Assembly (NCBI RefSeq): GCF_002999135.1
Contig: NZ_CP027229.1
Span: 1,508,001-1,572,000 of the forward strand
Reading direction: 5' to 3'
DNA length: 64,000 nt
Source of the DNA: Capnocytophaga sp. oral taxon 878
Lineage (GTDB): Bacteria; Bacteroidota; Bacteroidia; Flavobacteriales; Flavobacteriaceae
Below, piece by piece: positions 25,698 to 49,916 of the stretch. The position numbers and the translations under genes are program-made. The stretch's first letter is position 1; every line of letters starts with the position of its first letter. The notes below the pieces were generated by a model. It was not told the origin of the DNA and did not search any database. It saw only the letters and a program-made list of their open reading frames with translations.

Positions 25698-28600
25698 ATG
25701 GCAGAGACAGACCACAGTTTTTTCGATAACTTCAGCGACCACTTGCAATCCACTCTTGGACAGCAGGCGCAGGGGCTTTCCCAGCTGAAGATAGAGAATG
25801 CCAAGATGAACTCCAATAAGAACCTTAGTGGAGAGACCAAGACTGTGGCAAATGTGTTGGACGCTGTGGATGCAGGTGTGCAGGCTTTTGGGCTGGTAAC
25901 AGGAGCTGTGGACGGGGTGGTAGAATCTGCCTTGGTAACTGCCCTTAGCGGTTTAGGACTTAAAGGAATGGCATGTCTGCCTGTGGCAATACAGCTAAGC
26001 CCTGTGCTGGGTATAGACATCCACTTTGTCAATATTCCGCCATCACCCGCCCCTGTGCCGATGCCTCATCCCTATATGGGTATCCTCTTGCGTCCTAAGG
26101 ACTTTCTCTCGGCGGCAATCTTGTCGCTTATTCCTCCCCCACCAGAAGCACCTGATGTTGAAGACCCTGACAACCCCACAGAGGCGGAGCAACAAGCCTT
26201 AAACCTCAATAAAGCAGTGAACTTAGCCCATACCCTGCTCACGATGAAGCTGGGCAATCTGGGGGCATCCGTGCTCATCGGAGGGCTACCGCGTGTGGTG
26301 GCAGGTACCCCAACGATAAATATCCCTCACGTTCCTATGGGAGCAGGCTTTCACGCTGTGGCAGCAGGCATTCAAAAGAACAAAGGACACGCCTATATGG
26401 GTAGCCTCAACGTGCTGGCAGATGGCGACCCGCTCTCGGGTGGCGGTGCACACTTGCATATGAACTGCTGTGATGTAGGCATCCCCTCTCCCCATACCGC
26501 TGGACAAGTAGCCAAACACAAGGAAGTACCTACAGGAATTCCTGTGTATTTGCCCACAGGAGTGATTAACCCCATACCAATGAGCAAACAGGTGCTTACC
26601 AACCCCGTGCCTATCCCTCTTAACCCTATCTCTTTTTTTAGTGGGAAGATAAAATCCTCTTTTGGGCGTTTGTTTAAGAAAGCAAAGAAAAAACTCTCAG
26701 ATAAACTTCACGGGATAGTCAATAAGCATATCCAATCTGATAAACTCAAAGACAGACTACATACGGCTATCTGTACCGTTACAGGGCACCCTGTGGACGT
26801 GGCAGATGGCACTTTCTTTACTGATGAGGAAGACTTCTTCCTCTCAGGGGTAATTCCCTTCTCGTGGCAGCGTATCTATTACAGCCAAAGCGACTATCGC
26901 GGTCCTTTGGGCTATGGCTGGCATCACAGTTATGATATGGCTATCGTGGTAGACGAGCACAGCCTCACTTTTAGAATGAGTGATGGTCGCCCTATTGCCT
27001 TTGTGCTGCCCACTGCCGACCACCCTGTGCTTAATATCGCTGAGCAAATGGAAGCGCGTTGCACCGCTGAGGGAGAGTACTATATCTGGAACCGCAAAGA
27101 AGACCTATATTACTACTTTACCAAAGAAAAATACAAACAACAACAACTGCTAAGCCGTATTGTAGACAACAACGATTTTAGCATTGACTTCTTCTACAAC
27201 CGCAGTGGGCATCTTGAAAAGATCATCGATAGCTGCAAGCGTACCCTGCGGATTGAAAACGATAGCAAGGGGCATATCACCAAAATTATCGCCCCTCACC
27301 CTGAGTACCAAAGCAAACCAGAAGATAATGCACTGACAGTCGCTATTTATGAGTACGATACTGAGGGCAACCTTATCAAAGAGACCAACGCTGCGGGCGA
27401 TAGTATGCACTTTGAGTACGACAATCACCTGCTCACCAAAGAGGTATGGCGTACAGGGCTTACGTGGCACTTTGTTTATGATGGTAATAAGACGGGTGCG
27501 CGCTGCGTGCATACGTGGGGTGATAAAGACCTCTACAACCACCGCCTGACTTTCTTAGAGGGAAAAACCATCGTTACCAACAGCTTAGGACACGACACCA
27601 CCTATTATCACAAAGGCGGGCTGGTATACAAGCAGGTAGATGCTGAGGGAGGCGAACAGCATTGGCGTTACGATGCCAACAATCAGCTCATCGCCTATAC
27701 CGACCAATTAGGCAGTACCTACTTTTACGACTATGACGAGCGCGGCAATACGCTAAGGGCAACCGACCCCGAGGGTGGTAATACCCAAACCGAATACCCG
27801 CACCCAATACTGCCATTAGGGCACTTACCTACGAAGTTTAAAGACTTAAACGGAGGGGTATGGCGTTGGAAGTACGACAAGCACGGGAATGTCATTACCC
27901 GCATCAATCCCGAGGGGGCTATTACCACAATGGAATACCAAGAGGGACTTTTGAAGACCATCACCGATCCGCTGGGCAATACCACCTCCCTCAAATACGA
28001 TAGCGAGCACAACATCACAGAGGTGAGCGACAACAGAGGCAACCGCAGTTATTTTGAGTATGATAAATGGGGGCGATGCACCGCTATTACCAACCCCAAA
28101 GGAGCGAAGCAAGAGCGAACCTTTGACGCGCTTAATAGGGTCATTCGGGTAAAGGACTTTGACGGCAATGAAATCAAACTCGCTTACGACCCTATTGACA
28201 ACCTGACCTACTACCGCGACAATATCAACGAGGTAAGCTACAGCTACAAGGGGATGTGGAAGCTCGGCAAGCGTACCGACTACAGAGGTACGATGAAGTT
28301 CGACTACAACACTGAAGAACAGCTCACAGCTATCTTCAATGAAAAGAGAGAGCGGCATTACTTTGAACTTGACAAGGTAGGGAATGTTATTGAGGAAACG
28401 AACTTTGCTGAAAAGCTAAGACGCTACAAACGCGACCTTGCAGGTAGGGTTATTGAAGAAACGCTGCCCAGTGGCAAACAAAGAGCTTATAACTACGACA
28501 AAGTAGGGCGTGTAACCAAAGTGGAGATGGTCTCAGGGATGCGCGGCAGCGATGAGGAGCTATCGCAGTTCTTTGAGTACTACCCCTCAGGAAAACTCGC

Positions 28601-30107
28601 CCGTGCAGTGAATATCAACAGTGAGCTTAAATTCTCTTACAACAACTTAGGACTGCTCACCAAGGAATACTGCAATGGGGAGCAAATCACCCATAGTTAT
28701 AACAACTTAGGGCAGCGCATCAGCACTGAGAGTAGCAAGGGAGCGAACTTGCAATACGAGCACGACAGCTTTGGACAGCTCAGCAGGATGAGCGTAGAGC
28801 AAGAGGGCGTGCAATGGGAGAGTACCCACCAGTACGACAGCTTAGGTTTTGAGTTGGAACGCCACCTGCCAGGGAAGATACGACAGACCTTTAAGTATGA
28901 TGATATAGGCAGGCTTATAGACCAACAGACACTCACCGACTACAAGATACGCCACCAACGGCGTTATACTTGGGGCGTGGGCAATCGCCTGCAACAAACT
29001 AACGACAGTAAGTTTGGAACTACCCATTACAACTACGACCTTGTGGGACACCTTCAGCACGCTACCTTTGGCGACCACACCCAGCAATGGCGCAAGAGCG
29101 ATAAGACAGGCAACCTCTTCAATACAGAAGACAGGCAAGGAATAGAATACGGGAAAGGCAATCGCTTAAAGAAATGGCACGGCTGGACGTTTAAATACGA
29201 TGACGATGGCAAACTTATAGAGAAGTACAAAGGTGGCGGGGGTTGGTTTAGTGCTAAGGAGGAGTGTTGGCAGTACAAGTGGGATGCTTTTGGAATGCTC
29301 AAGGAGGTAAAACGCCCTGACAAGCAAAAAGTAACCTTTACCTACGATGCTCTTGGCAGACGCCTTACCAAGCATTTTAGCCGCACCACCACCCACTTTT
29401 TGTGGAGTGGCAATGTGCCCTTGCACGAATGGAAAGAAACCTTTGAGTTCAATTATAGCACGGGCTTATATGATTTAGGTACTGAGCACAGTCCCATCAC
29501 TTGGATTTTTGAAGCAGGCTCTTTTGTGCCTTGTGGAAAAATCACCAACGGCAAACATTACTCCATCATCACCGACCACTTAGGTACCCCCATAGAAGCC
29601 TACAACCAAGAAGGCGCGCTAATATGGGAACGCGAACAAGACCTCTATGGCAACTCCCGACAAGGTTTTGCAAAAGAAAACTTCAGGTGTCCATTCAAGT
29701 ACCAAGGACAATATTACGATCCTGAGATAGAACTTTGCTACAATAGGTTTAGGTATTATCACCCTGAAACGGGTAGGTATATAAGTGAAGACCCGATAAG
29801 ATTCTTATCTGGGGAGCCTAACTTTTTCGCGTATGTAAGTGATACCAATGCGTGGGTGGATGTGCTGGGATTGGGGGGGAGTATTTATGCAAACACTAGA
29901 GAAATGACTGATGAAGAAATAGCTCGTTTTTTTGGTGATGAAAAATGGCACAAAACTAATGCAAAATCAGATTATTTAGGAAATTTTAAGAAAGAAATGA
30001 AAGGAGATACTAATGCAGATTTTCACATAGATAAAGATACAAATGATATTTACTTAAAGACTAATCAAAAAAAAATATGGATAAACACAGGAGATAAATT
30101 AGAATAA
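25698..30107 (+). CDS. rhs2: PAAR-like/Rhs T6SS effector 2 with short unassigned toxin tip
   Basis: A 1469-aa effector beginning MAETDHSFFDNFSDH; the start at 25698 is chosen because it aligns with the other Rhs starts (an in-frame start at 25635 would overlap the previous gene). The PAAR-like region, DUF6531 and YD-repeat core match rhs1 and rhs3 almost completely to WVDVLGL near residue 1392. The core ends with DPIRFLSGE, as in rhs1. The tip is only about 77 residues: GDEKWHKTNAK, GDTNADFHID, IYLKTNQKKIWINTG. This pattern recalls small polymorphic-toxin domains (type 33-like), but no activity can be assigned. Unlike rhs1 and rhs3 it lacks the module promoter and is read with vgrG. Three immunity copies follow. 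Confidence 0.88.
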   Translation: MAETDHSFFDNFSDHLQSTLGQQAQGLSQLKIENAKMNSNKNLSGETKTVANVLDAVDAGVQAFGLVTGAVDGVVESALVTALSGLGLKGMACLPVAIQLSPVLGIDIHFVNIPPSPAPVPMPHPYMGILLRPKDFLSAAILSLIPPPPEAPDVEDPDNPTEAEQQALNLNKAVNLAHTLLTMKLGNLGASVLIGGLPRVVAGTPTINIPHVPMGAGFHAVAAGIQKNKGHAYMGSLNVLADGDPLSGGGAHLHMNCCDVGIPSPHTAGQVAKHKEVPTGIPVYLPTGVINPIPMSKQVLTNPVPIPLNPISFFSGKIKSSFGRLFKKAKKKLSDKLHGIVNKHIQSDKLKDRLHTAICTVTGHPVDVADGTFFTDEEDFFLSGVIPFSWQRIYYSQSDYRGPLGYGWHHSYDMAIVVDEHSLTFRMSDGRPIAFVLPTADHPVLNIAEQMEARCTAEGEYYIWNRKEDLYYYFTKEKYKQQQLLSRIVDNNDFSIDFFYNRSGHLEKIIDSCKRTLRIENDSKGHITKIIAPHPEYQSKPEDNALTVAIYEYDTEGNLIKETNAAGDSMHFEYDNHLLTKEVWRTGLTWHFVYDGNKTGARCVHTWGDKDLYNHRLTFLEGKTIVTNSLGHDTTYYHKGGLVYKQVDAEGGEQHWRYDANNQLIAYTDQLGSTYFYDYDERGNTLRATDPEGGNTQTEYPHPILPLGHLPTKFKDLNGGVWRWKYDKHGNVITRINPEGAITTMEYQEGLLKTITDPLGNTTSLKYDSEHNITEVSDNRGNRSYFEYDKWGRCTAITNPKGAKQERTFDALNRVIRVKDFDGNEIKLAYDPIDNLTYYRDNINEVSYSYKGMWKLGKRTDYRGTMKFDYNTEEQLTAIFNEKRERHYFELDKVGNVIEETNFAEKLRRYKRDLAGRVIEETLPSGKQRAYNYDKVGRVTKVEMVSGMRGSDEELSQFFEYYPSGKLARAVNINSELKFSYNNLGLLTKEYCNGEQITHSYNNLGQRISTESSKGANLQYEHDSFGQLSRMSVEQEGVQWESTHQYDSLGFELERHLPGKIRQTFKYDDIGRLIDQQTLTDYKIRHQRRYTWGVGNRLQQTNDSKFGTTHYNYDLVGHLQHATFGDHTQQWRKSDKTGNLFNTEDRQGIEYGKGNRLKKWHGWTFKYDDDGKLIEKYKGGGGWFSAKEECWQYKWDAFGMLKEVKRPDKQKVTFTYDALGRRLTKHFSRTTTHFLWSGNVPLHEWKETFEFNYSTGLYDLGTEHSPITWIFEAGSFVPCGKITNGKHYSIITDHLGTPIEAYNQEGALIWEREQDLYGNSRQGFAKENFRCPFKYQGQYYDPEIELCYNRFRYYHPETGRYISEDPIRFLSGEPNFFAYVSDTNAWVDVLGLGGSIYANTREMTDEEIARFFGDEKWHKTNAKSDYLGNFKKEMKGDTNADFHIDKDTNDIYLKTNQKKIWINTGDKLE

Positions 30108-31988: not shown

Positions 31989-32015
31989 AGCTTCGCAAAT
32001 AAAATGAGCTATTTT

Positions 32016-32047
32016 TTTGTATAATCAGAAAATAATTAGTACTTTTG
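32016..32047 (+). promoter_or_regulatory. Bacteroidota promoter of rhs3
   Basis: TTTG at 32016-32019, 20-nt spacer, TACTTTTG at 32040-32047. It is identical to the rhs1 promoter, and the homology upstream of both genes begins at 11861 and 31996. Confidence 0.75.
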
Positions 32048-32074
32048 CCTCGTAAATCACCTTAATAAAGTACT

Positions 32075-35000
32075 ATGTCCGACACCTCACACAGTTTTTT
32101 CGATAACTTCAGCGACCACTTGCAGTCCACTGTTGGACAGCAGGTGGAAGGGCTATCCCAGTTGAAGATAGAGAATGCCAAGATGAACTCCAATAAGAAC
32201 CTTAGTGGAGAGACCAAGACTGTGGCAAATGTGTTGGACGCTGTGGATGCAGGTGTGCAGGCTTTTGGGCTGGTAACAGGAGCTGTGGACGGGGTGGTAG
32301 AATCTGCCTTGGTAACTGCCCTTAGCGGTTTAGGACTTAAAGGAATGGCATGTCTGCCTGTGGCAATACAGCTAAGCCCTGTGCTGGGTATAGACATCCA
32401 CTTTGTCAATATTCCGCCATCACCCGCCCCTGTGCCGATGCCTCATCCCTATATGGGTATCCTCTTGCGTCCTAAGGACTTTCTCTCGGCGGCAATCTTG
32501 TCGCTTATTCCTCCCCCACCAGAAGCACCTGATGTTGAAGACCCTGACAACCCCACAGAGGCGGAGCAACAAGCCTTAAACCTCAATAAAGCAGTGAACT
32601 TAGCCCATACCCTGCTCACGATGAAGCTGGGCAATCTGGGGGCATCCGTGCTCATCGGAGGGCTACCGCGTGTGGTGGCAGGTACCCCAACGATAAATAT
32701 CCCTCACGTTCCTATGGGAGCAGGCTTTCACGCTGTGGCAGCAGGCATTCAAAAGAACAAAGGACACGCCTATATGGGTAGCCTCAACGTGCTGGCAGAT
32801 GGCGACCCGCTCTCGGGTGGCGGTGCACACTTGCATATGAACTGCTGTGATGTAGGCATCCCCTCTCCCCATACCGCTGGACAAGTAGCCAAACACAAGG
32901 AAGTACCTACAGGAATTCCTGTGTATTTGCCCACAGGAGTGATTAACCCCATACCAATGAGCAAACAGGTGCTTACCAACCCCGTGCCTATCCCTCTTAA
33001 CCCTATCTCTTTTTTTAGTGGGAAGATAAAATCCTCTTTTGGGCGTTTGTTTAAGAAAGCAAAGAAAAAACTCTCAGATAAACTTCACGGGATAGTCAAT
33101 AAGCATATCCAATCTGATAAACTCAAAGACAGACTACATACGGCTATCTGTACCGTTACAGGGCACCCTGTGGACGTGGCAGATGGCACTTTCTTTACTG
33201 ATGAGGAAGACTTCTTCCTCTCAGGGGTAATTCCCTTCTCGTGGCAGCGTATCTATTACAGCCAAAGCGACTATCGCGGTCCTTTGGGCTATGGCTGGCA
33301 TCACAGTTATGATATGGCTATCGTGGTAGACGAGCACAGCCTCACTTTTAGAATGAGTGATGGTCGCCCTATTGCCTTTGTGCTGCCCACTGCCGACCAC
33401 CCTGTGCTTAATATCGCTGAGCAAATGGAAGCGCGTTGCACCGCTGAGGGAGAGTACTATATCTGGAACCGCAAAGAAGACCTATATTACTACTTTACCA
33501 AAGAAAAATACAAACAACAACAACTGCTAAGCCGTATTGTAGACAACAACGATTTTAGCATTGACTTCTTCTACAACCGCAGTGGGCATCTTGAAAAGAT
33601 CATCGATAGCTGCAAGCGTACCCTGCGGATTGAAAACGATAGCAAGGGGCATATCACCAAAATTATCGCCCCTCACCCTGAGTACCAAAGCAAACCAGAA
33701 GATAATGCACTGACAGTCGCTATTTATGAGTACGATACTGAGGGCAACCTTATCAAAGAGACCAACGCTGCGGGCGATAGTATGCACTTTGAGTACGACA
33801 ATCACCTGCTCACCAAAGAGGTATGGCGTACAGGGCTTACGTGGCACTTTGTTTATGATGGTAATAAGACGGGTGCGCGCTGCGTGCATACGTGGGGTGA
33901 TAAAGACCTCTACAACCACCGCCTGACTTTCTTAGAGGGAAAAACCATCGTTACCAACAGCTTAGGACACGACACCACCTATTATCACAAAGGCGGGCTG
34001 GTATACAAGCAGGTAGATGCTGAGGGAGGCGAACAGCATTGGCGTTACGATGCCAACAATCAGCTCATCGCCTATACCGACCAATTAGGCAGTACCTACT
34101 TTTACGACTATGACGAGCGCGGCAATACGCTAAGGGCAACCGACCCCGAGGGTGGTAATACCCAAACCGAATACCCGCACCCAATACTGCCATTAGGGCA
34201 CTTACCTACGAAGTTTAAAGACTTAAACGGAGGGGTATGGCGTTGGAAGTACGACAAGCACGGGAATGTCATTACCCGCATCAATCCCGAGGGGGCTATT
34301 ACCACAATGGAATACCAAGAGGGACTTTTGAAGACCATCACCGATCCGCTGGGCAATACCACCTCCCTCAAATACGATAGCGAGCACAACATCACAGAGG
34401 TGAGCGACAACAGAGGCAACCGCAGTTATTTTGAGTATGATAAATGGGGGCGATGCACCGCTATTACCAACCCCAAAGGAGTGAAGCAAGAGCGAACCTT
34501 TGACGCGCTTAATAGGGTCATTCGGGTAAAGGACTTTGACGGCAATGAAATCAAACTCGCTTACGACCCTATTGACAACCTGACCTACTACCGCGACAAT
34601 ATCAACGAGGTAAGCTACAGCTACAAGGGGATGTGGAAGCTCGGCAAGCGTACCGACTACAGAGGTACGATGAAGTTCGACTACAACACTGAAGAACAGC
34701 TCACAGCTATCTTCAATGAAAAGAGAGAGCGGCATTACTTTGAACTTGACAAGGTAGGGAATGTTATTGAGGAAACGAACTTTGCTGAAAAGCTAAGACG
34801 CTACAAACGCGACCTTGCAGGTAGGGTTATTGAAGAAACGCTGCCCAGTGGCAAACAAAGAGCTTATAACTACGACAAAGTAGGGCGTGTAACCAAAGTG
34901 GAGATGGTCTCAGGGATGCGCGGCAGCGATGAGGAGCTATCGCAGTTCTTTGAGTACTACCCCTCAGGAAAACTCGCCCGTGCAGTGAATATCAACAGTG

Positions 35001-36622
35001 AGCTTAAATTCTCTTACAACAACTTAGGACTGCTCACCAAGGAATACTGCAATGGGGAGCAAATCACCCATAGTTATAACAACTTAGGGCAGCGCATCAG
35101 CACTGAGAGTAGCAAGGGAGCGAACTTGCAATACGAGCACGACAGCTTTGGACAGCTCAGCAGGATGAGCGTAGAGCAAGAGGGCGTGCAATGGGAGAGT
35201 ACCCACCAGTACGACAGCTTAGGTTTTGAGTTGGAACGCCACCTGCCAGGGAAGATACGACAGACCTTTAAGTATGATGATATAGGCAGGCTTATAGACC
35301 AACAGACACTCACCGACTACAAGATACGCCACCAACGGCGTTATACTTGGGGCGTGGGCAATCGCCTGCAACAAACTAACGACAGTAAGTTTGGAACTAC
35401 CCATTACAACTACGACCTTGTGGGACACCTTCAGCACGCTACCTTTGGCGACCACACCCAGCAATGGCGCAAGAGCGATAAGACAGGCAACCTCTTCAAT
35501 ACAGAAGACAGGCAAGGAATAGAATACGGGAAAGGCAATCGCTTAAAGAAATGGCACGGCTGGACGTTTAAATACGATGACGATGGCAAACTTATAGAGA
35601 AGTACAAAGGTGGCGGGGGTTGGTTTAGTGCTAAGGAGGAGTGTTGGCAGTACAAGTGGGATGCTTTTGGAATGCTCAAGGAGGTAAAACGCCCTGACAA
35701 GCAAAAAGTAACCTTTACCTACGATGCTCTTGGCAGACGCCTTACCAAGCATTTTAGCCGCACCACCACCCACTTTTTGTGGAGTGGCAATGTGCCCTTG
35801 CACGAATGGAAAGAAACCTTTGAGTTCAATTATAGCACGGGCTTATATGATTTAGGTACTGAGCACAGTCCCATCACTTGGATTTTTGAAGCAGGCTCTT
35901 TTGTGCCTTGTGGAAAAATCACCAACGGCAAACATTACTCCATCATCACCGACCACTTAGGTACCCCCATAGAAGCCTACAACCAAGAAGGCGCGCTAAT
36001 ATGGGAACGCGAACAAGACCTCTATGGCAACTCTCGTCAAGGTTTTGCTAAAGAAAACTTTAGATGTCCGTTCAAGTATCAAGGGCAATATTACGATCCT
36101 GAGATAGAACTTTGCTACAATAGGTTTAGGTATTATCACCCTGAGACGGGGAGGTATATAAGTGAAGACCCAATAGGATTCTTATCTGGAGAACCTAACT
36201 TTTTCGCGTATGTTGGGGATACCAATGCTTGGGTGGATTTGCTGGGGTTGGAACTTATATTCGTTAATCCAAATGACATTAATTATTCACAGCGAACAGT
36301 ATCTGAAATAAGAGTGTTTGATCCTTCTAAATATAAACCAATAAATGTAATCATTGTTGATGGACAGATGGTTACTTATGATAACAGGAGATTATTAGCT
36401 GCTCAGAATGCTGGACTTAATACACTTGAAATAAACACTGTCGAAGCGGATGAACTATTTCCTCTTTCTGAAAAAAATACTTGGTGGGATAAATTTAAAG
36501 AAAGATACAAAGATGATAGAAATATTGCAGCAGGAGGTATTGTACCTGATAAAGGATTAAAAGAAAAACCTGTTCTTAAATCATCTATTTCTAATAAAAA
36601 AAATACTTATAAAGATAAATAA
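32075..36622 (+). CDS. rhs3: PAAR-like/Rhs T6SS effector 3 with ParB/Srx-like toxin tip
   Basis: A 1515-aa effector with the same PAAR-like, DUF6531 and YD-repeat core as rhs1 and rhs2. Small N-terminal differences are STVGQQVEGLSQ against STLGQQAQGLSQ. The core end keeps the canonical DPIGFLSGE and then reads WVDLLGL. The tip (~124 residues) has VNPNDINYSQRTVS, PINVIIVDGQMVTYDNRRLLAAQNAGL and IEVNTV-like strands. This is the pattern of ParB/sulfiredoxin-fold domains, in which the DNRRL-type motif lies near the active site, so a nuclease or nucleotide-hydrolysing toxin is possible. It has its own promoter; the immunity gene follows after 9 bp. Confidence 0.88.
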   Translation: MSDTSHSFFDNFSDHLQSTVGQQVEGLSQLKIENAKMNSNKNLSGETKTVANVLDAVDAGVQAFGLVTGAVDGVVESALVTALSGLGLKGMACLPVAIQLSPVLGIDIHFVNIPPSPAPVPMPHPYMGILLRPKDFLSAAILSLIPPPPEAPDVEDPDNPTEAEQQALNLNKAVNLAHTLLTMKLGNLGASVLIGGLPRVVAGTPTINIPHVPMGAGFHAVAAGIQKNKGHAYMGSLNVLADGDPLSGGGAHLHMNCCDVGIPSPHTAGQVAKHKEVPTGIPVYLPTGVINPIPMSKQVLTNPVPIPLNPISFFSGKIKSSFGRLFKKAKKKLSDKLHGIVNKHIQSDKLKDRLHTAICTVTGHPVDVADGTFFTDEEDFFLSGVIPFSWQRIYYSQSDYRGPLGYGWHHSYDMAIVVDEHSLTFRMSDGRPIAFVLPTADHPVLNIAEQMEARCTAEGEYYIWNRKEDLYYYFTKEKYKQQQLLSRIVDNNDFSIDFFYNRSGHLEKIIDSCKRTLRIENDSKGHITKIIAPHPEYQSKPEDNALTVAIYEYDTEGNLIKETNAAGDSMHFEYDNHLLTKEVWRTGLTWHFVYDGNKTGARCVHTWGDKDLYNHRLTFLEGKTIVTNSLGHDTTYYHKGGLVYKQVDAEGGEQHWRYDANNQLIAYTDQLGSTYFYDYDERGNTLRATDPEGGNTQTEYPHPILPLGHLPTKFKDLNGGVWRWKYDKHGNVITRINPEGAITTMEYQEGLLKTITDPLGNTTSLKYDSEHNITEVSDNRGNRSYFEYDKWGRCTAITNPKGVKQERTFDALNRVIRVKDFDGNEIKLAYDPIDNLTYYRDNINEVSYSYKGMWKLGKRTDYRGTMKFDYNTEEQLTAIFNEKRERHYFELDKVGNVIEETNFAEKLRRYKRDLAGRVIEETLPSGKQRAYNYDKVGRVTKVEMVSGMRGSDEELSQFFEYYPSGKLARAVNINSELKFSYNNLGLLTKEYCNGEQITHSYNNLGQRISTESSKGANLQYEHDSFGQLSRMSVEQEGVQWESTHQYDSLGFELERHLPGKIRQTFKYDDIGRLIDQQTLTDYKIRHQRRYTWGVGNRLQQTNDSKFGTTHYNYDLVGHLQHATFGDHTQQWRKSDKTGNLFNTEDRQGIEYGKGNRLKKWHGWTFKYDDDGKLIEKYKGGGGWFSAKEECWQYKWDAFGMLKEVKRPDKQKVTFTYDALGRRLTKHFSRTTTHFLWSGNVPLHEWKETFEFNYSTGLYDLGTEHSPITWIFEAGSFVPCGKITNGKHYSIITDHLGTPIEAYNQEGALIWEREQDLYGNSRQGFAKENFRCPFKYQGQYYDPEIELCYNRFRYYHPETGRYISEDPIGFLSGEPNFFAYVGDTNAWVDLLGLELIFVNPNDINYSQRTVSEIRVFDPSKYKPINVIIVDGQMVTYDNRRLLAAQNAGLNTLEINTVEADELFPLSEKNTWWDKFKERYKDDRNIAAGGIVPDKGLKEKPVLKSSISNKKNTYKDK

Positions 36623-37223: not shown

Positions 37224-37694
37224 ATGGCATTATACAACTATGGTATCGGTGGCAATGAGGTAGAAGTCGATGCAAATGAATCCATTGCAGACATTCCCTC
37301 CAACAGAACCCTTATGGTTCAGAAACTCACAGATGAAGCTCCTGTAACTCCTGAGACAGTAGAAGGTTTGCAGACAGTGGAAGAAGTGTTTGAGCACTTC
37401 AAACCCTCTGTGGAATTAGAACTCCAAGATGAAGCAGGCAATGAGATAAAAGAGAAAGTTGAGTTTAAGAATCTCGCTGACTTTGCCGCTAAATCACTTC
37501 AAGAAGGCAGTGAACTTATGAACCGCCTAAATACAGAAAAAGAGCAGAACATTAAAATTGCTAAACAAGCAGCCTCTAATAAATTGTTAGCTAAAATATT
37601 AGCTAACCCAGAGAGTAAAGAAGCTCTTATGAAGGTATTAGAAGGGTCGTTAGAAGAATTAGAAAAGTCTGAAGGCAATAATAAAATAGGATAA
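37224..37694 (+). CDS. tssB2: TssB (VipA), T6SS sheath small subunit, copy 2
   Basis: A 156-aa near-identical copy of tssB1. Differences are FKP for FRP, DEAGN for DEEGN and FAAKS for FGAKS. Either copy should pair with either TssC. It opens a second sheath operon with its own promoter, directly after the rhs3 immunity gene. Confidence 0.92.
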   Translation: MALYNYGIGGNEVEVDANESIADIPSNRTLMVQKLTDEAPVTPETVEGLQTVEEVFEHFKPSVELELQDEAGNEIKEKVEFKNLADFAAKSLQEGSELMNRLNTEKEQNIKIAKQAASNKLLAKILANPESKEALMKVLEGSLEELEKSEGNNKIG

Positions 37695-37696
37695 TT

Positions 37697-39073
37697 ATGG
37701 CAGATAATAAGTTACAAGCACAGAGAAGTACTGCTACCACAACCGTAGTAAAACAAGAAACCGCCACCTCAGCATCTGCTTTAGATGCTCTCAAAGAGTT
37801 TGGAGGTTTTGCTTTTTTAGAGAACCTCATTGATGGTTACTCAAACCTTAATCCCGCCAGAAAGGCACGCCGTAATATATTCCTTACTGATGAACAATGG
37901 TCATCAGAGAGAAAAAACCTTATCAATAGATTAAGTGTTTGGTTAGACTTGCTTAAGAACAGTAATAATGTAGAGCAAATGCGCGATGCTGCTAATAGCA
38001 AAGCAGAACAGATGGAACAGTTGCTAAACTTTAACCTTAAAAAGTCACTTGAAAGAGTAAAAGAATTAGAACGGTCTTACCGTTCAGTAGCACTGTTCTA
38101 CAAGAATACAGAAAGTCCTAAAGTAAAGAATATATCTATTGTAAATGCCGATATAAGCCAGCTTAAGGATTTGGATAACACCCTATTTATTGACCATATC
38201 AGCAGTGAGTTAGATAGAAATTACGATCGCTTGGACTTGCGTAATAACTATTCCATCTTGGTAGTGCCAGGTTATTTAGGTTCTAACGCAGTTTTGGACA
38301 AATGGTCAAAGATAGCCTATAAGAATAAAGTGATGTTGGTTACTGACTTTGCAGACTTGGAAAGTGCAGATGATGTGATTGATATATTCTTCAATGCGAA
38401 TCACTCAGGAGGTGATGTATACAAGTCTAATACACTGATGACTTGTAATTGGCTTTTGGGTAGAGAGATGAATGCAAGAGTAGGAGAAGATGAGCACTTA
38501 TATGTACCAGGATCATCAGCCTTAGCAGGAAAGATTTACAACACACTGATGGCACAAGTCGTTGCAGGAAAGAAGTTCGGCAGCATTAATGAAGTAGAGA
38601 GTGTACGCTTTGATTTAAAGAAGAGTGAGATTTCAGAATTAGAGAAAATAGGTTTGATACCAATGGTCAATGAGTACAGCAAGGTAATGGCTTTCTCAGG
38701 AAAGACCTTGTTCAATGGAGATAATTTAGGCTTACAGACCTATTCAGTAGTAAGGGTATTTGACTATATCGCCAAAGTACTGATAGACTTTTTGAACCGC
38801 AGAGCATTTGAGAACTTTTCTTCAAAGACAGAGGATGATTTGCGTAGACAGATTGTAAAGTTCCTTGATAGCATACAGGGACCAACAAGGCTGATAGAGA
38901 AGTTCAAGGTGATTCGTATCCAGCAGGATAAAAAACAGAAAGACAGAGTATGGTTGGATATTCATATTACTCCTTACTTCCCATCAAAGAGTTTTGTGAT
39001 ACAATTAGAAGGTCGCAAGGGAGAGGGAGAAGAAGAGGCAGTTTGGGAAAGTCAGTACCAACAGCAAGAATAA
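37697..39073 (+). CDS. tssC2: TssC (VipB), T6SS sheath large subunit, copy 2
   Basis: A 458-aa copy of tssC1, identical over most of its length, with changes clustered near residues 99-108 and 220-325 (KNKVML, REMNARVGEDEHL, EKIG, NEYSK). From about residue 375 to the terminator the DNA is identical to copy 1. The changed patches lie between the conserved sheath strands, so the proteins are probably interchangeable or form mixed sheaths (inference). The gene ends 76 bp before the stop codon of the converging coupling-protein gene. Confidence 0.94.
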   Translation: MADNKLQAQRSTATTTVVKQETATSASALDALKEFGGFAFLENLIDGYSNLNPARKARRNIFLTDEQWSSERKNLINRLSVWLDLLKNSNNVEQMRDAANSKAEQMEQLLNFNLKKSLERVKELERSYRSVALFYKNTESPKVKNISIVNADISQLKDLDNTLFIDHISSELDRNYDRLDLRNNYSILVVPGYLGSNAVLDKWSKIAYKNKVMLVTDFADLESADDVIDIFFNANHSGGDVYKSNTLMTCNWLLGREMNARVGEDEHLYVPGSSALAGKIYNTLMAQVVAGKKFGSINEVESVRFDLKKSEISELEKIGLIPMVNEYSKVMAFSGKTLFNGDNLGLQTYSVVRVFDYIAKVLIDFLNRRAFENFSSKTEDDLRRQIVKFLDSIQGPTRLIEKFKVIRIQQDKKQKDRVWLDIHITPYFPSKSFVIQLEGRKGEGEEEAVWESQYQQQE

Positions 39074-43587: not shown

Positions 43588-44346
43588 ATGACATCTATGA
43601 CAAAATTCATTAGCTTTTCTACCCAGAAAGGAGGGGTAGGAAAAAGTACCTTTACCACCTTAGTAGCCAGCTTGCTACATTATCGAATGGGCTACAATGT
43701 AGCAGTGATGGATTGTGATTATCCACAATACAGCCTACACCGAATGCGAGAACAAGACCTCAAAACAGTGATGAACAATGAGCATTTTAAGAAAGCTGCT
43801 CATAGACAGTTTAGTGAGCTAAACAAAAAGGCATATCCCATAATACAATGTAAGCCTAATGAAGCCCTTGAAAAGGCACAACAGCTCATTGCAGAGACAC
43901 CTTTCCCTATAGAGGTTATCCTTTTTGATATGCCAGGGACAGTAAATACCGCAGGAATATTGACCCTGTTGGCACAAATGCATCACATTTTCTCACCTAT
44001 CACTGCCGATAGAGTGGTGATTGAAAGTACTTTGAGTTTTACTGAGGTACTTTCCAATATCATTGCTAAGAATACCGAAAGTGCTATTAAAAGCGTGCAT
44101 TTGTTTTGGAATCAGGTAGATGGAAGAGAAAAATCGCCTTTGTATAAGATATACGAGCAGGTGATCGCTGATTTAGGTTTGAACCTAATGCAAGCCTACA
44201 TATCTGATAGCAAGCGTTTCCGAAAAGATGGCACAGAAAACCAACGATTGGTATTCCGTTCTACCTTAATGCCTGCTGATGAGAAGTTGATGAGCGGTTG
44301 CCATTTGGACGACTTTATTGATGAGTTGGTACAGATTATTCAATAA
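43588..44346 (+). CDS. traA: TraA, ParA-family ATPase of the conjugative element
   Basis: A 252-aa ParA/MinD-type ATPase with the deviant Walker A KGGVGKST near residue 14, the A' motif VAVMDCDYPQYS and the Walker B-type LFDMPG. In CTnDOT-like elements TraA is the first product of the transfer operon. The first ATG (43588) is used; another ATG lies 9 bp further on. It starts just after the repeat-rich end of the candidate oriT region and is followed 11 bp later by traB. Confidence 0.9.
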   Translation: MTSMTKFISFSTQKGGVGKSTFTTLVASLLHYRMGYNVAVMDCDYPQYSLHRMREQDLKTVMNNEHFKKAAHRQFSELNKKAYPIIQCKPNEALEKAQQLIAETPFPIEVILFDMPGTVNTAGILTLLAQMHHIFSPITADRVVIESTLSFTEVLSNIIAKNTESAIKSVHLFWNQVDGREKSPLYKIYEQVIADLGLNLMQAYISDSKRFRKDGTENQRLVFRSTLMPADEKLMSGCHLDDFIDELVQIIQ

Positions 44347-44357
44347 ACCCTAAAGAT

Positions 44358-44741
44358 ATGAAGACAGTAAAACCTATAGACGAAAACGAACTAATGGAGC
44401 TAATGGCAGGCAAGCAACCCACGCCTGCCCCTGCCATTGCTACGGCTCCGATAGAGACAGAGAAAGCACCTCAGAAACCAGCTCCCACCAAGAAGAAAAA
44501 GGCAGAACTCTATGAGTATGAAAGTTATTTTTTTGAGCAGGGAGAGACTTCAGCAAGGGAAGGAAAATCGGTGTATATACGTCCTGAGTTTCACCAGCGA
44601 ATAGCCCGCATTGTACAGGTGATAGGAGAAGACAAGATCAGTCTGTACAACTATTTAGATAATGTGCTCAAAGCGCATTTTGAGCAGTACCAAGAGGAAA
44701 TTACACAGAGTTTTGAACAGAAATACAAGCCTATATTTTAA
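44358..44741 (+). CDS. traB: TraB-like protein (DUF3408 type)
   Basis: A 127-aa protein. A proline- and alanine-rich N-terminus (PTPAPAIATAPIE) leads to a C-terminal domain with YIRPEFHQRIARIVQVIGEDKISLYNYLDNVLKAHFEQY, the ribbon-helix-helix-like pattern of the DUF3408 family found after ParA in Bacteroidota conjugative elements. It may bind DNA and work with TraA. Confidence 0.78.
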   Translation: MKTVKPIDENELMELMAGKQPTPAPAIATAPIETEKAPQKPAPTKKKKAELYEYESYFFEQGETSAREGKSVYIRPEFHQRIARIVQVIGEDKISLYNYLDNVLKAHFEQYQEEITQSFEQKYKPIF

Positions 44742-44743
44742 CA

Positions 44744-45295
44744 ATGGAAAAGATAATTATTTTACTACTTATCGTGGTGATTTTGTTGTTGCTATCGGAC
44801 AAAATGCCTATAACACATTCTAAAAAGAGAGCTCCCAAACCTAAAGCTACTCCTATACCCAAAACAGCTCCTCCAAGTTCGGTAATGGGGGAAAGCAGGT
44901 TTGTGCCTCCTGCAAAGATAGTCCCTACAGCTATCCCCTTAACAGAAAAAGAGCAACAGGATATTCTGACAGAATGGGAAGAGGAACCTATCATAAACCT
45001 TGAAGATGAAGAAGAGGATTTGCGCAGCTATCGCACAGAGGCAGAGGACAATGATTTTGCCACAGGGCTTTCATTTGAGGACTTGGAAAAGGTAGCTACT
45101 TTCCTCTCTGAGGACAAAGAAGAGGTTACCACGGAGAACATAGAGTTACTGCAAAAAGTAGAGGGCACCAGCCTATTAGAAGCCATAGAAAAAGCCTTGC
45201 CCCAAGCGACTCTTAAAGTAAGTACGCTCTTGGAGAAGGCGTTGCCTAAAGCTATAGAGAGTAAAACGGAGTTTGATATTAGGGAGTTTGTGTAA
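44744..45295 (+). CDS. traD: TraD-like membrane-anchored conjugation protein
   Basis: A 183-aa protein starting 2 bp after traB. One N-terminal membrane helix (IIILLLIVVILLLL) is followed by a basic proline-rich linker and an acidic soluble domain (EDEEEDLRSYRTEAED, LEKVATFLSEDKEEV). Position after traB and this layout fit TraD of CTnDOT-type operons. The expected traE does not follow directly; it is displaced 4 kb by the defence gene. Confidence 0.6.
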   Translation: MEKIIILLLIVVILLLLSDKMPITHSKKRAPKPKATPIPKTAPPSSVMGESRFVPPAKIVPTAIPLTEKEQQDILTEWEEEPIINLEDEEEDLRSYRTEAEDNDFATGLSFEDLEKVATFLSEDKEEVTTENIELLQKVEGTSLLEAIEKALPQATLKVSTLLEKALPKAIESKTEFDIREFV

Positions 45296-45314
45296 TATTT
45301 TATGTTATAAAATA
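45296..45314. terminator. Bidirectional palindrome between converging traD and the TIR-STAND gene
   Basis: TATTTTAT / ATAAAATA with a 3-nt loop. It overlaps the - strand stop codon and lies right after the traD stop, with T or A runs on both sides. It is a weak AT-only stem. Confidence 0.45.
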
Positions 45315-48300
45315 CTCTTCATCTTTCTTTTTTTCCTGAATAATTCGTTTGCTTAACTCGTTTATATTCTGCTGTGCCCATTCTGAAACTATAGGATTAC
45401 TATTGTCCACAATGCTTTCAAGTAATTTTTTATTAGATTCAAGTAAGGGTACAATAGAACCTGACCACGAGAAGCTATTCATATTGGCCTCTAATCCGTG
45501 AAGAACCTCTTTTATACTTCCAAATTCATCTATTAATCTTTTTGCAATAGGATTCCATTCAGTTCGGTCTTCATTATATATAGGAACTAATTCAGCAATA
45601 AGAGTAGGTGCAATAGGTTGATTCTTATTACACCAGTCTATAATTTTCTCAATATTATTATTAAATAATATATCCTTTTTTGTATATATATTATTAATAT
45701 GCTCTCCTAATAGCTGCTTTATCCCCCAGAATTTCATATATCCATCATGCTCATTGATTATAGCAGAAGATATAATTGCCCAAGTGCTATCAAAATAATC
45801 ACTCAATGCAATTTCAAATATGCTTCTATATGGTTCCAAACTAAGTGCAGTATCCCAGTTTATATAATTGATAATATCGTTTACCACAAATGAACATAAT
45901 TTCTCATCTTTTTCTTCGTTTTTAAGAATATTTCTTATATGATTAAAGTATTGAAAGTTATCAATGTTATTATTCCATTGTACTCCTATTTTATATATAC
46001 ACTCTTTCAAAAAACCATCTATGACAATTTGTTTTTCAGCATCTTGAGTACGAATAGAACTTAATAGCTCAAAAATCATTATATACCCCTGTATCTCATA
46101 ATTTAATAGCTTATTTTGTAAAGATTCAATCTCTTGTATACTGAGTTTTTGTAAAGCCATCCTATACTTTAAATGCCCTAAATAACTAAACAATTGAGGG
46201 TGATTATCTATTAATTTAAATAATTGATCAAAGTGCTCAACTCCTTTCTCATCATTAGCAACAAAAATAAACAGAAGATAATTTAAATACGATTTTTCTC
46301 CTACTTTTTGATAAAAATATTTCTTAATTTCTCTTTCTGATTGCTCAATAAAGCCTAATAGAATTGAATAATCAAACAATTCTTCGCCTAATTCTTCTGC
46401 TATTGATAATGATATATTAATAAATTTTTCACTTTTATCTATATTATCATTAAAAAAATCACTTATTGATTTGCCAAAATATGATTGATATATTACATAG
46501 ATCCCTCGCTCTCTTTTGTAGAGTTTAGATAGAAGTTCTCTTTGCTCTACTTCTTTAAACTCCATAAAAACCTTGGCTAAAGAATACATTCGTTCCTTTT
46601 CTTTCTCTTCAAACTTTTCAAGAGAGTAGTTTTTATCATAGAACTTATCATAACTTCTAAAACGAGTCATAAAATCTTTTGATAATTCTTCTATAATCTT
46701 TTGTAAGTGCGTTCTATGTTCTTCTAATATTTTATTACCTTCAAAAGCTAAGGTCATTCTAATGCTATCTAATCCTTCTTGCCAAATTCCATTTTTTATA
46801 GCGATAACATCATCTATATATGGTAGTACTATAGCTATCAAACCTATGTTAGTCAAACCTCTAATGGAATCAGCAATAATTTTACTTACTTCATCTATAT
46901 ATATACCTTCACTTCTAATAAGATTGATAAGTTCATCTAATATACTGTTATAGTATTCTGATATTTCTACATCATATATAGGGGCATAATCTTTTAATTC
47001 ATCTATTCCTTGCCTTTCTGCACCTTTCATTCTTACAAAATGGTTAGTTGTTAAACCAGAAGCCATTGCTTTAATAGCTAATTGGGTAAACTTTTCGTCT
47101 TTCATACCTAACCCCCATTTGATAATCTTTAATCTCTCCTTTAGAGAAACTTCTGTCCCAGCTAAGAAAATATGAAATAATTGTAGAAATTGCCCAGTTG
47201 CATTATTAGCCCACGACTCATTCTCTGCAACCGCAAGTCTATACAATATTTTAGTACTATTAGCGAACGTTTCCTTACCAAAGCATAGCTTTTCTAATGT
47301 CCATATTATATTTCGTCTTCCTTCTTTAAATTCTAATAGCTCTTCTGTTTTTTTATTGTTGAATTGTCTATAAAGGTTATCAGATATTGCTACTGGATTC
47401 ACTTCTACAAATGAACGGAAGAGGCGTGAACCCAATTCAGTATTTAAAACTTCCGTACTATCAAAAGGGGAGTTTTCTCCTACTATTGTTTCAATTATCT
47501 GTTTAGCATTATCACTATATTTTAAATACTTAAGCTGTTCTGATAATGAATCAATTAAAATCGTATCATGAGGAGAGTCAAGTTCTTGTATTTCTTTAAT
47601 TATCTCATAAAACTTTTCTTTGTCAGTATTCTCAAACCATTCTTGTGCCAATAGGATTGCTAAAGGAAAAGGACGCAGTGATAGATAACGTCCTTTTTTT
47701 TCAAATATCTCTCTTTTTTGATAATGTTTAACTAATTCCTTGAATGTACTGTTCCTAACTTCATCGGTGTCATTAGATATTGTCAATTTTTTATTGTTAA
47801 TGATAAATTGATACTGTTTAGATAAATCTTCTTCATATCCAAATTTGCTAAATAAAGAACAAGACCTTAATATAGCTCTACAGTTCTTAACACTTGCTTT
47901 CTCTCCTAAAATCTTATCCAATAATTCCTTATTATCTATGTCATCTATAAGTTCACCATTTTTAATACTTCTTCCTAATAGAATGGCCATAAAGGGGATG
48001 CCATCTGAAAACTCTTTTATCTGTTCAATTTTATTCTTATCTAATCCCTTAAACATTGATGAGATAATACACTCTGTAATATCAGAAAAATCTTTTTTTT
48101 CTATGACAAAATATTGGGTATTTCCAATCTTATTTAAGCTATATTCTTCAGGGTTTGAATCAATGGTAATTAGTGTAAGTCCTCTTGTTAAATGTTTTGC
48201 AATTATTTTATGTTTATCAATATTACAGTTGTCAATAACTAAAATAGCATCTGATTTATTTTGGTTTACTTGAGACATAAAATAAGAAAAATCAATCTCA

Positions 48301-49106
48301 CTTGTGAGATAGTTATAGTCTAAATATAATATTCTATTTGAAAGTAATATGGATTCTTGATTATTTTCTACTTTCTTGAATATCTCAAATAAAATTCGAG
48401 TTTTTCCCATTCCAGGAAGACCTGTAATCCTAATTGGTAGTTTATTAGGATTATTAATTTCCGTCATTATAATATCTCTAATTTCTTTTGTCTTCTTATT
48501 CTCTATAAACTCACTTTCTATACTTATTTCATCTCTCCATTCTCTCCATTGTTCCCAAGTTTTAAAAGGTCTATATTTATTTTTTTGTTCTTCAAGAATA
48601 TGTTGTATAATAGTTATCAATGCATTTTTTAAATTACTAATTAATCTTTCTTTGATGCTTTCAATTTCTTCTTCATTGTTATTTGAATATTTATATTTAA
48701 TAGGATATCTTATATGTTGTATATCAAAAGGTAATTCTTCAGGTTCTCCATAAAAAGTATTAATTACTCCTATAATTCTTTCTTTTCCTAATGCATTACG
48801 TGCAACTCCATATTCAAACATGACATTATTATTAGAAAAAAGTTTTTTCTGTTCTTTTTTATTTACTATAGATAGATCCGCAATAAATATATCTGAATTT
48901 GGAATTCTTTTTTCAACAATAGTATCAGCTACAGATGGTGATCCTGGTTCCCCATTTATCCCATCTTTTATATCAAACTCAATAGTTTGATAAAATTCTT
49001 CTTCTTTAATCTTATCTTTAGTTTCGTTAATACATTCCAAAATAAAATTATGATTGTATTTTGGATCTGTTGTTGATTGCCATGAATAGAATATTGTTAT
49101 TTTCAT
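45300..49106 (-). CDS. TIR-like / STAND NTPase protein, candidate anti-phage defence gene
   Basis: A 1268-aa protein. The start MKITIFYSWQ at 49106 is chosen because it begins the domain and follows a promoter; the frame is open to 49268, but that part looks non-coding. Residues 1-165 are a TIR-like domain (FYSWQS, SDIFIADLS, NNVMFEYGVARNALG with a candidate catalytic Glu, RIIGVIN). Next is a STAND-type NTPase with Walker A GLPGMGKTR (near 229) and Walker B ILVIDN (near 287). The last ~800 residues are helical repeats, a likely sensor. This plan is that of Avs-like and other STAND defence proteins: target binding assembles the protein and the TIR domain depletes NAD. The gene is much more AT-rich than its neighbours and opposite in strand, so it is cargo. 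Confidence 0.85.
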   Translation of the reverse strand: MKITIFYSWQSTTDPKYNHNFILECINETKDKIKEEEFYQTIEFDIKDGINGEPGSPSVADTIVEKRIPNSDIFIADLSIVNKKEQKKLFSNNNVMFEYGVARNALGKERIIGVINTFYGEPEELPFDIQHIRYPIKYKYSNNNEEEIESIKERLISNLKNALITIIQHILEEQKNKYRPFKTWEQWREWRDEISIESEFIENKKTKEIRDIIMTEINNPNKLPIRITGLPGMGKTRILFEIFKKVENNQESILLSNRILYLDYNYLTSEIDFSYFMSQVNQNKSDAILVIDNCNIDKHKIIAKHLTRGLTLITIDSNPEEYSLNKIGNTQYFVIEKKDFSDITECIISSMFKGLDKNKIEQIKEFSDGIPFMAILLGRSIKNGELIDDIDNKELLDKILGEKASVKNCRAILRSCSLFSKFGYEEDLSKQYQFIINNKKLTISNDTDEVRNSTFKELVKHYQKREIFEKKGRYLSLRPFPLAILLAQEWFENTDKEKFYEIIKEIQELDSPHDTILIDSLSEQLKYLKYSDNAKQIIETIVGENSPFDSTEVLNTELGSRLFRSFVEVNPVAISDNLYRQFNNKKTEELLEFKEGRRNIIWTLEKLCFGKETFANSTKILYRLAVAENESWANNATGQFLQLFHIFLAGTEVSLKERLKIIKWGLGMKDEKFTQLAIKAMASGLTTNHFVRMKGAERQGIDELKDYAPIYDVEISEYYNSILDELINLIRSEGIYIDEVSKIIADSIRGLTNIGLIAIVLPYIDDVIAIKNGIWQEGLDSIRMTLAFEGNKILEEHRTHLQKIIEELSKDFMTRFRSYDKFYDKNYSLEKFEEKEKERMYSLAKVFMEFKEVEQRELLSKLYKRERGIYVIYQSYFGKSISDFFNDNIDKSEKFINISLSIAEELGEELFDYSILLGFIEQSEREIKKYFYQKVGEKSYLNYLLFIFVANDEKGVEHFDQLFKLIDNHPQLFSYLGHLKYRMALQKLSIQEIESLQNKLLNYEIQGYIMIFELLSSIRTQDAEKQIVIDGFLKECIYKIGVQWNNNIDNFQYFNHIRNILKNEEKDEKLCSFVVNDIINYINWDTALSLEPYRSIFEIALSDYFDSTWAIISSAIINEHDGYMKFWGIKQLLGEHINNIYTKKDILFNNNIEKIIDWCNKNQPIAPTLIAELVPIYNEDRTEWNPIAKRLIDEFGSIKEVLHGLEANMNSFSWSGSIVPLLESNKKLLESIVDNSNPIVSEWAQQNINELSKRIIQEKKKDEEYFIT

Positions 49107-49136
49107 AAAGTCTTTAATTGTTAAAATTCCACCCTG

Positions 49137-49165
49137 CAAAATTACAAAAACTTTTCCATATACAA
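49137..49165 (-). promoter_or_regulatory. Promoter of the TIR-STAND gene
   Basis: On the - strand TAATTTTG (49137-49144) preceded, 18 nt upstream, by TTG (49163-49165). This is close to the Bacteroidota consensus and supports the start at 49106, about 30 bp downstream. Confidence 0.6.
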
Positions 49166-49216
49166 CCATATTAAGCCAAACCCTACCACTTTCATTCTCC
49201 TCATCTCCTATTCCCC

Positions 49217-49224
49217 TACCTTTG
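49217..49224 (+). promoter_or_regulatory. Probable -7 element for traE onward
   Basis: TACCTTTG fits TAnnTTTG and lies 28 bp before the traE start. The -33 box is not clear. It would let traE-traQ be transcribed although the defence gene separates them from traABD. Confidence 0.5.
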
Positions 49225-49252
49225 CCCCGAATTTTAAAATAACAGATTATCA

Positions 49253-49561
49253 ATGAAGCGAAAATCAATTCTAAAACGGCTCCTTCTATTGACGATGATA
49301 GGAGTTACACAATTTTCCATTGCTCAGGGCAATGGTGTAGGAGGTATCAACGAAGCTACCCGTATGGTTACCTCGTATTTTGACCCAGCTACCAAGCTCA
49401 TCTATGCCATAGGGGCTGTGGTGGGACTCATCGGTGGGGTGAAGGTATATAACAAGTTTAGTAGTGGCGACCCCGATACCAGCAAAACGGCTGCCAGTTG
49501 GTTTGGGGCTTGTATTTTCCTAATTGTAGCGGCTACGATCTTACGTTCGTTCTTCTTATAA
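49253..49561 (+). CDS. traE: TraE (DUF4134), conjugation membrane protein
   Basis: A 102-aa protein with a signal sequence (MKRKSILKRLLLLTMIGVTQFSIAQ) and two further hydrophobic segments (LIYAIGAVVGLIGGVKVY, FGACIFLIVAATILRSFF). GINEATRMVTSYFDPATKLIYAIGAVVG is the family signature. It is VirB2-like in size and topology, so it may be a pilin-type subunit (inference). It is followed 4 bp later by traF. Confidence 0.88.
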   Translation: MKRKSILKRLLLLTMIGVTQFSIAQGNGVGGINEATRMVTSYFDPATKLIYAIGAVVGLIGGVKVYNKFSSGDPDTSKTAASWFGACIFLIVAATILRSFFL

Positions 49562-49565
49562 ACTT

Positions 49566-49916
49566 ATGGAGACAAAAAACAGCTATTCTATCAACAAAGG
49601 CATCGGCAGAAGTGTAGAGTTCAAAGGACTCAAAGCGCAGTACCTCTTCATCTTTGCAGGAGGACTGCTCTCGGTGCTTATCTTGGTGATGATCCTCTAC
49701 ACGGTAGGAGTCAATTCTTTTGTATGCTTGGGGGTAGGCGTTAGTATGGTCAGCCTTGTGGTTTGGCAGACTTTTTCACTAAACCAGAAATACGGTGAAC
49801 ACGGCCTGATGAAACAAGCAGCTCGCAAACGCCACCCCAAATACCTACGCCACCAAAGATCCCCACGCCAATTTATTCGTTACCCTAAACCTAAAACAAC
49901 CCTCAATGAGAAATAG
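49566..49916 (+). CDS. traF: TraF (DUF4133), conjugation membrane protein
   Basis: A 116-aa protein with the motif YSINKGIGRSVEFKGLKAQYLFIFAGGLL, two membrane helices and a basic C-terminus (KQAARKRHPKYLRHQRS), as in the DUF4133 family. It resembles VirB3 in size and place before the VirB4-type ATPase. Its last 11 bases overlap traG. Confidence 0.87.
   Translation: METKNSYSINKGIGRSVEFKGLKAQYLFIFAGGLLSVLILVMILYTVGVNSFVCLGVGVSMVSLVVWQTFSLNQKYGEHGLMKQAARKRHPKYLRHQRSPRQFIRYPKPKTTLNEK

Follow-up and report, generated by a model that had tools for sequence, protein, structure and literature searches.

A predicted TIR-STAND receptor gene with mosaic alleles in a cargo slot of a Capnocytophaga conjugative element

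What is a gene of 1268 codons doing on the opposite strand in the middle of a conjugation operon? The question is raised by a 64,000-nucleotide stretch of the 2.99-Mb, two-contig genome of Capnocytophaga sp. oral taxon 878 (NZ_CP027229.1, positions 1,508,001 to 1,572,000; hereafter the window), where an integrative and conjugative element (ICE) carries such a gene between traD and traE. Its product joins a TIR-like module, a STAND ATPase and a helical solenoid. As judged from sequence, the gene is a new TIR-effector variant of the known anti-phage family PD-lambda-4, and its TIR and ATPase alleles occur in every combination on one sensor type in Capnocytophaga.

The gene, its modules and its family

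The gene and its borders are as follows.
44744..45295, plus strand: traD-like gene, 183 aa, left border of the slot (open reading frame list)
45296..49252, no strand: cargo slot, from the traD stop to the traE start (comparison of ICE slots)
45300..49106, minus strand: TIR-STAND-solenoid gene, 1268 aa, stop codon within (open reading frame list, translation, homologues)
49253..49561, plus strand: traE-like gene, 102 aa, right border of the slot (open reading frame list)

The coordinates bear out the arrangement described in an initial annotation of the window: the gene starts with an ATG at 49106 and runs through 1268 coding codons (45303-49106, minus strand) to a stop codon at 45300-45302, 4 bp from the stop of traD. 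It is also AT-rich, as had been stated, with a GC content of 28.0% against 41.5% in traA-D and 43.2% in traE-N. The reading frame lies far beyond chance, because 180 homologues were found at E≤0.001; 118 of the best 120 cover 100% of the query. Nor is the protein unique, as the family is widespread in Bacteroidota among the matches listed and a 76% identical paralogue occupies the corresponding site of another ICE of this genome. This second element is of the same type and in inverse orientation (G000:C1:1154020-1191757; L004, L083-L086).

The protein is divided into four modules.
48582..49106, minus strand: TIR-like effector module, residues 1-175, allele A, with conserved Glu98 (alignments, predicted fold, Pfam)
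47907..48581, minus strand: STAND nucleotide-binding module, residues 176-400, P-loop at 229-237 (alignment, predicted fold)
47463..47906, minus strand: winged-helix/ARC-like region, residues 401-548, swapped as one with the ATPase in Capnocytophaga
45303..47462, minus strand: all-helical solenoid, putative sensor, residues 549-1268, common to the Capnocytophaga alleles

Both motifs named in the initial annotation, VMFEYG with its glutamate (E98) and the STAND P-loop GLPGMGKTR, are present in the translation. E98 and P-loop residues G229, G232, G234, K235, T236 and R237 were all invariant, in 15 of 15 rows of one alignment and in 45 of 45 of another (both alignments include the window's own protein). 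The predicted fold of residues 1-175 matches SfSTING and is CAP12/STING-like, and the structure prediction proposed as a check accordingly found a TIR fold with a catalytic-type glutamate. The Pfam family CAP12-PCTIR_TIR (PF10137) gave E 0.0086 for the window's allele, short of the cut-off that the paralogue passes, and two PADLOC TIR effector models match residues 80-161 (E 5.1e-5 and 3e-4). By fold and conserved glutamate, the module is a TIR-type effector of the PCTIR/CAP12 subfamily with predicted NADase activity. The P-loop, an NLR-type nucleotide-binding domain and the winged helix, identified from predicted fold and sequence, make the ATPase STAND/NLR-like. The C-terminal part, annotated as helical, is an all-helical solenoid in the prediction, and its sensing role is putative. 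Structural matches of the solenoid (HEAT/ARM-like proteins, karyopherins, PP2A) were rejected as a sign of homology, and no solved structure was found by sequence for the whole protein, the TIR profile or the profile of alignment A3.

The proposal of a new Avs-like protein gave way to a different affiliation. PADLOC model PD-Lambda-4_A aligns to residues 204-1262 over profile positions 217-1271 of 1283 (E 1.8e-48), so that the ATPase and the sensor fall within PD-lambda-4, whereas no Avs model matched at E≤1 in PADLOC, a library with such models. The PD-lambda-4 model is specific, with hits in none of 14 control genomes and in two of the 60 searched genomes (the window's own and another Capnocytophaga, G011). 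Profile positions 1-216, the N-terminal effector, are unmatched by the window protein. All seven more distant relatives tested match the model, and three of them (L061, L065 and L079) cover it end to end, N-terminus included; theirs carries a D-GGED...FQ-KA motif, nuclease-like by eye, with nothing above the Pfam cut-off. Since the end-to-end relatives have this other N-terminus, the window gene represents a branch of the PD-lambda-4 STAND family with a TIR effector, and since relatives carry differing N-termini, the conserved unit is the ATPase plus the C-terminal part, with exchangeable N-terminal effectors. Fusions of an alpha/beta hydrolase (L066 209-4093, L081 5173-9300) and of a calcineurin-like phosphoesterase (L069 8954-13219) to a PD-lambda-4-type ATPase/solenoid were also observed. 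A TIR effector is now tied to this little-studied family, which gains a predicted fold.

Compared with PD-lambda-4 (Vassallo et al. 2022, PMC9519451), the ATPase and C-terminal helical part align, but the N-terminal effector is a TIR where the end-to-end profile relatives start nuclease-like. The accessible part of that paper states that PD systems are named after the selecting phage (lambda-vir for PD-lambda), that each candidate was confirmed to lower plating of its selecting phage and that 12 of the 21 systems are probably abortive, in both cases without singling out PD-lambda-4 (PMC9519451); the accessible part of a review lists PD-lambda-4 with a P-loop NTPase (PMC10952713). The window protein resembles Avs/AVAST (Avs1-5), but its sequence groups with PD-lambda-4, and the fold similarity is common to STAND proteins generally. 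NLRs carry leucine-rich repeats, and the window protein differs from plant TIR-NLRs (RPP1, WRR4A) in having a helical solenoid in their place. It shares TIR subfamily PF10137 and the SfSTING fold match with the TIR-STING/Cap12 and Pycsar TIR effectors, but the TIR of these joins a cyclic-nucleotide-binding domain and that of the window a STAND receptor. A search for the E. coli PD-lambda-4 gene with the DNA of a Lelliottia relative gave no match, no copy was found in 50,697 phage records and no close one in viral_contigs. PADLOC analysis of eight further proteins (neighbours in L081, L079, L047 and L056; window TraD and TraE) returned no more than two matches, LmuB (weak, L081) and HNH (L056).

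Mosaic alleles on one sensor type

The alignment of 31 Capnocytophaga-group entries among the matches listed (of which P0001 and P0002 are both the window protein) revealed three TIR alleles (A, B and C) over residues 1-165 and two ATPase alleles (1 and 2) over residues 200-545. All six combinations occur on one sensor type: A1 (3 entries), B1 (1), C1 (2), A2 (1), B2 (17) and C2 (7). Over residues 550-1268, most 50-residue blocks are at least 90% identical to those of the window, the lowest reaching 82%. DNA comparison of three loci (A1, B2 and C2) from two sequenced genomes gave synonymous divergences of 0.08-0.11 for residues 546-1268 and 0.82-1.06 for the TIR; in the ATPase/winged-helix part, A1 differs from the others by 0.85-1.88 and C2 from B2 by 0.009-0.012. 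The ratio of nonsynonymous to synonymous divergence (dN/dS) between TIR alleles is 0.30-0.47, with no excess of amino-acid change. Each shift in identity takes up about one 60-bp window; the shifts lie close to the start codon, around residue 170 (C2 vs B2) and at residue ~548. A1 shows a graded identity of 80-92% across residues 171-231, and B2 differs at the start of traE too. A swap of the TIR only (C2 vs B2) and a swap of the ATPase (A1 vs B2 and C2) are thus both seen between these three loci.

The window's own genome holds A1 and C2, which differ at both modules, in two ICEs whose long flanking stretches on both sides align at 94-97% identity. An origin of the mosaic in chimeric assembly was set aside for A1, B2 and C2, which are seen in sequenced genomes; B1, C1 and A2 are known from protein database entries alone, where chimeras are possible. 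In 12 of 13 treed rows, TIRs of the same allele have one amino-acid sequence whatever the ATPase type (P0003 differs slightly), which points to recent spread. The sensor tree unites the genus (support 100) and the TIR tree does not; an approximately unbiased test for the TIR alleles not forming one Capnocytophaga clade was marginal, with a long branch (p 0.046). A literature search for combinatorial effector and ATPase alleles on a constant sensor found none, subscription papers being mostly outside its reach.

Across 120 full-length family proteins (the 732-aa fragment P0037 was dropped), 400 pairs combine a sensor at least 85% identical with a TIR at most 60% identical, against none with a sensor at most 60% and a TIR at least 85% identical, or 16 when the TIR threshold is lowered to at least 75%; pairs are not independent. 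Winged-helix swaps are less one-sided (363 vs 46 pairs at the thresholds used). The homologue search took its words from the first 500 residues, so any bias would be towards shared N-termini rather than shared sensors. Outside the genus, no pair joins an ATPase at least 80% identical to a TIR at most 60% identical, and none does the reverse; the TIR and the ATPase seem to move together there, because no pair parts them. On the sequences compared, exchange of the TIR alone is shown for Capnocytophaga alone.

The traD-traE slot and its leader

ICEs of the window's type, defined by TraG (829 aa, identity at least 85%), are present in 8 of the 20 Capnocytophaga genomes, counting that of the window. 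Eight slots in six genomes could be read without gaps (two in the window's genome, one each in G011, G009, G012 and G014, and two in G013, whose contig has three runs of 100 N and carries each slot on an unbroken piece); G004 and G006, whose contigs end short of the site, were not counted. All eight readable slots are filled, with six kinds of cargo, in agreement with the suggestion that the site is a cargo hotspot. In each case the cargo runs antisense to the tra genes, and 4 to ~190 bp separate its end from the stop of traD. The TIR-STAND gene occupies three slots. The others hold ShosA with ShosT (ShosTA; PADLOC E 2.3e-78 and 6e-23), an 882-aa ATPase matching the candidate PDC-S06 (E 4.1e-156), and three further cargoes. 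One, in G009 (L027 3335-5536), has three genes, for a 316-aa protein with a membrane-like start, a SocA/Panacea protein (Pfam E 4.5e-6) and a 231-aa membrane-like protein, and showed no PADLOC match. Another, in G012 (L028 9436-11627), comprises a 540-aa protein that ends in an M43-like metallopeptidase part (HTLGLTH; Pfam E 1.6e-4, just under the cut-off) and a 190-aa protein whose start resembles a signal peptide; the two may be a secreted effector and its immunity protein. The last, in G013 (L097 1364-2422), is a candidate new defence gene, whose 352-aa product matched nothing in Pfam or PADLOC. The ShosTA, SocA/Panacea and PDC-S06 cargoes share the slot and antisense orientation of the TIR-STAND gene, but their proteins are unrelated to its product.

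In G145, from outside Capnocytophaga, traD and traE lie ~280 bp apart without a visible cargo gene. Fifteen plasmid records were listed (87 had a match) and seven sampled; six have traE and a gene in the traD position 68-202 bp apart, free of cargo, and the seventh lacks a traD-like neighbour. In Capnocytophaga ICEs of another type the gap is 18 and 47 bp in the two inspected (of four). The slot therefore looks like a trait of this Capnocytophaga ICE clade, on a small sample. A cargo slot in this conjugation operon was not found described in the literature searched, and further defence genes could be harvested from it.

Two promoter-like features lie between the cargo start and traE.
49137..49165, minus strand: promoter-like pair for the cargo (TTG at 49163-49165, 18-nt spacer, TAATTTTG at 49137-49144)
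49217..49224, plus strand: -7-like box TACCTTTG, 28 bp upstream of traE

The Bacteroidota promoter consensus is a -33/-7 pair. A pair of this type, TTG-N18-TAATTTTG, ends 30 bp before the cargo start codon and is the only one in 44300-49700; with 17 such pairs in the window, the promoter proposed for the gene is plausible only. Towards traE, TACCTTTG is the sole plus-strand TAnnTTTG in 44300-49700 (five lie on the minus strand) and has no TTG partner at 17-22 nt. Together these suggest a promoter for each side of the slot, an arrangement that would leave traE and the genes after it active with cargo in place. The three TIR-STAND slots share the leader GTATATGGAAAAGTTTTTGTAATTTTG with the G009 slot (Panacea protein) and both G013 slots, the PDC-S06 slot among them; the leaders of G012 and G014 differ, with TATCTTTG and TACATTTG (by eye), the ShosTA slot being one of these two. 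The traE N-terminus itself comes in two signal-peptide-like versions among otherwise near-identical ICEs (L005 13030-13475, G011; L027 2951-3460); the breakpoint lies immediately ahead of the cargo leader.

Function, rival readings and other features of the window

NLR and Avs receptors work by sensing, ATPase-driven assembly and effector activation. By analogy with these, and with mechanistic details taken from the accessible part of a paper on Avs receptors (PMC12724215), this ICE cargo gene probably encodes an intracellular, NLR-like immune receptor that would provide abortive anti-phage defence by NAD+ cleavage; an anti-phage function is likely. The C-terminal solenoid would sense the intruder, most likely a conserved phage protein, whereupon the STAND ATPase would be free to exchange nucleotide and oligomerise. 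The TIR domains at the N-terminus would then gather and cleave NAD+ (or produce a nucleotide signal), and the loss of NAD+ would arrest growth of the infected cell. Direct support comes from the predicted folds, the conservation of the P-loop and TIR glutamate, the PD-lambda-4 membership, module replacement on one sensor and the cargo slot, which elsewhere holds defence, toxin-antitoxin-like or effector-like genes; the trigger, oligomerisation, NADase activity, abortive outcome and anti-phage role are what we infer.

Position within the tra operon would also suit a receptor for conjugative elements or plasmids that enter the cell (it might recognise a relaxase or a coupling protein); by killing or halting recipients it would protect the ICE already in residence. 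Two ICEs with different alleles in one genome are what a self/non-self locus might show. Yet closely related ICEs with different alleles coexist there, so A1 and C2 do not exclude each other, and the sensor, expected to vary under this explanation, is the most constant part. Moreover, a comparison of 17 window ICE proteins with the flanks of 29 loci of relatives outside the genus (10 kb at most, shorter for some loci) gave no match at E≤1e-5 (a tra operon of an unlike type would escape this test), and PD-lambda systems were selected with phage lambda-vir (PMC9519451). Defence against other elements is accordingly an unlikely role. A conjugation regulator governing the tra operon from within is more improbable still: STAND proteins include transcription regulators such as MalT and the gene diverges from traE, but the protein bears a TIR module, no DNA-binding domain was detected in it, and ICEs of the same type hold unrelated cargo at the site, so this type does not need the TIR-STAND gene.

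Within the immune-receptor reading, the shuffling most likely arises by recombination between ICEs, and it is perhaps maintained because it brings variation to the targets of phage inhibitors or to parts whose cross-assembly has to be avoided. Three explanations can be distinguished: neutral recombination at conserved joints, escape from inhibitors of the TIR or of assembly, and orthogonality of co-resident copies. The neutral one, in which ICEs often recombine by homology and so exchange old alleles without selection on TIR or ATPase diversity, is compatible with an immune receptor and is a real possibility: the joints are conserved sequence (leader and start, residues ~171-230, residue ~548), co-resident ICEs offer the opportunity, and the dN/dS between TIR alleles given above shows no excess of amino-acid change. 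Against it stand the strong asymmetry of the pair counts (400 vs 0, or 16 at the lower TIR threshold, among non-independent pairs) and the identity of TIRs across ATPase types in 12 of 13 treed rows. The single case of A1 and C2 in one genome fits orthogonality. It is tempting, if tentative, to see a polymorphic immune locus that varies the 'wrong' end, with a near-fixed sensor on which a few old TIR and ATPase alleles are reassorted, keeping co-resident copies orthogonal and evading phage inhibitors of the TIR or of ATPase assembly, the whole nested in whole-gene exchange at a traD-traE slot with a divergent promoter region. In any case, a single sensor type combined in every way with three TIRs and two ATPases constitutes a natural experiment for asking what selects effector over sensor diversity in bacterial NLR-like immunity.

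Other features of the window were noted in passing. Beside the second ICE, a homologue of window positions 58930-66929 (extending beyond the window end) recurs at 1154020-1162005 with 96.7% identity, an adjacent partial duplication. GC content is 44-51% in the blocks 12000-16000, 26000-30000 and 32000-36600 and 25-46% elsewhere; the first two blocks are known from composition alone. The third contains a Rhs-like reading frame of 1515 aa (32075-36622, by eye), followed by one of 138 aa, which look like a polymorphic toxin and its immunity gene. Two reading frames at 37224-39073, adjoining the ICE mobilisation genes, resemble, by eye, TssB/TssC, the sheath proteins of type VI secretion.

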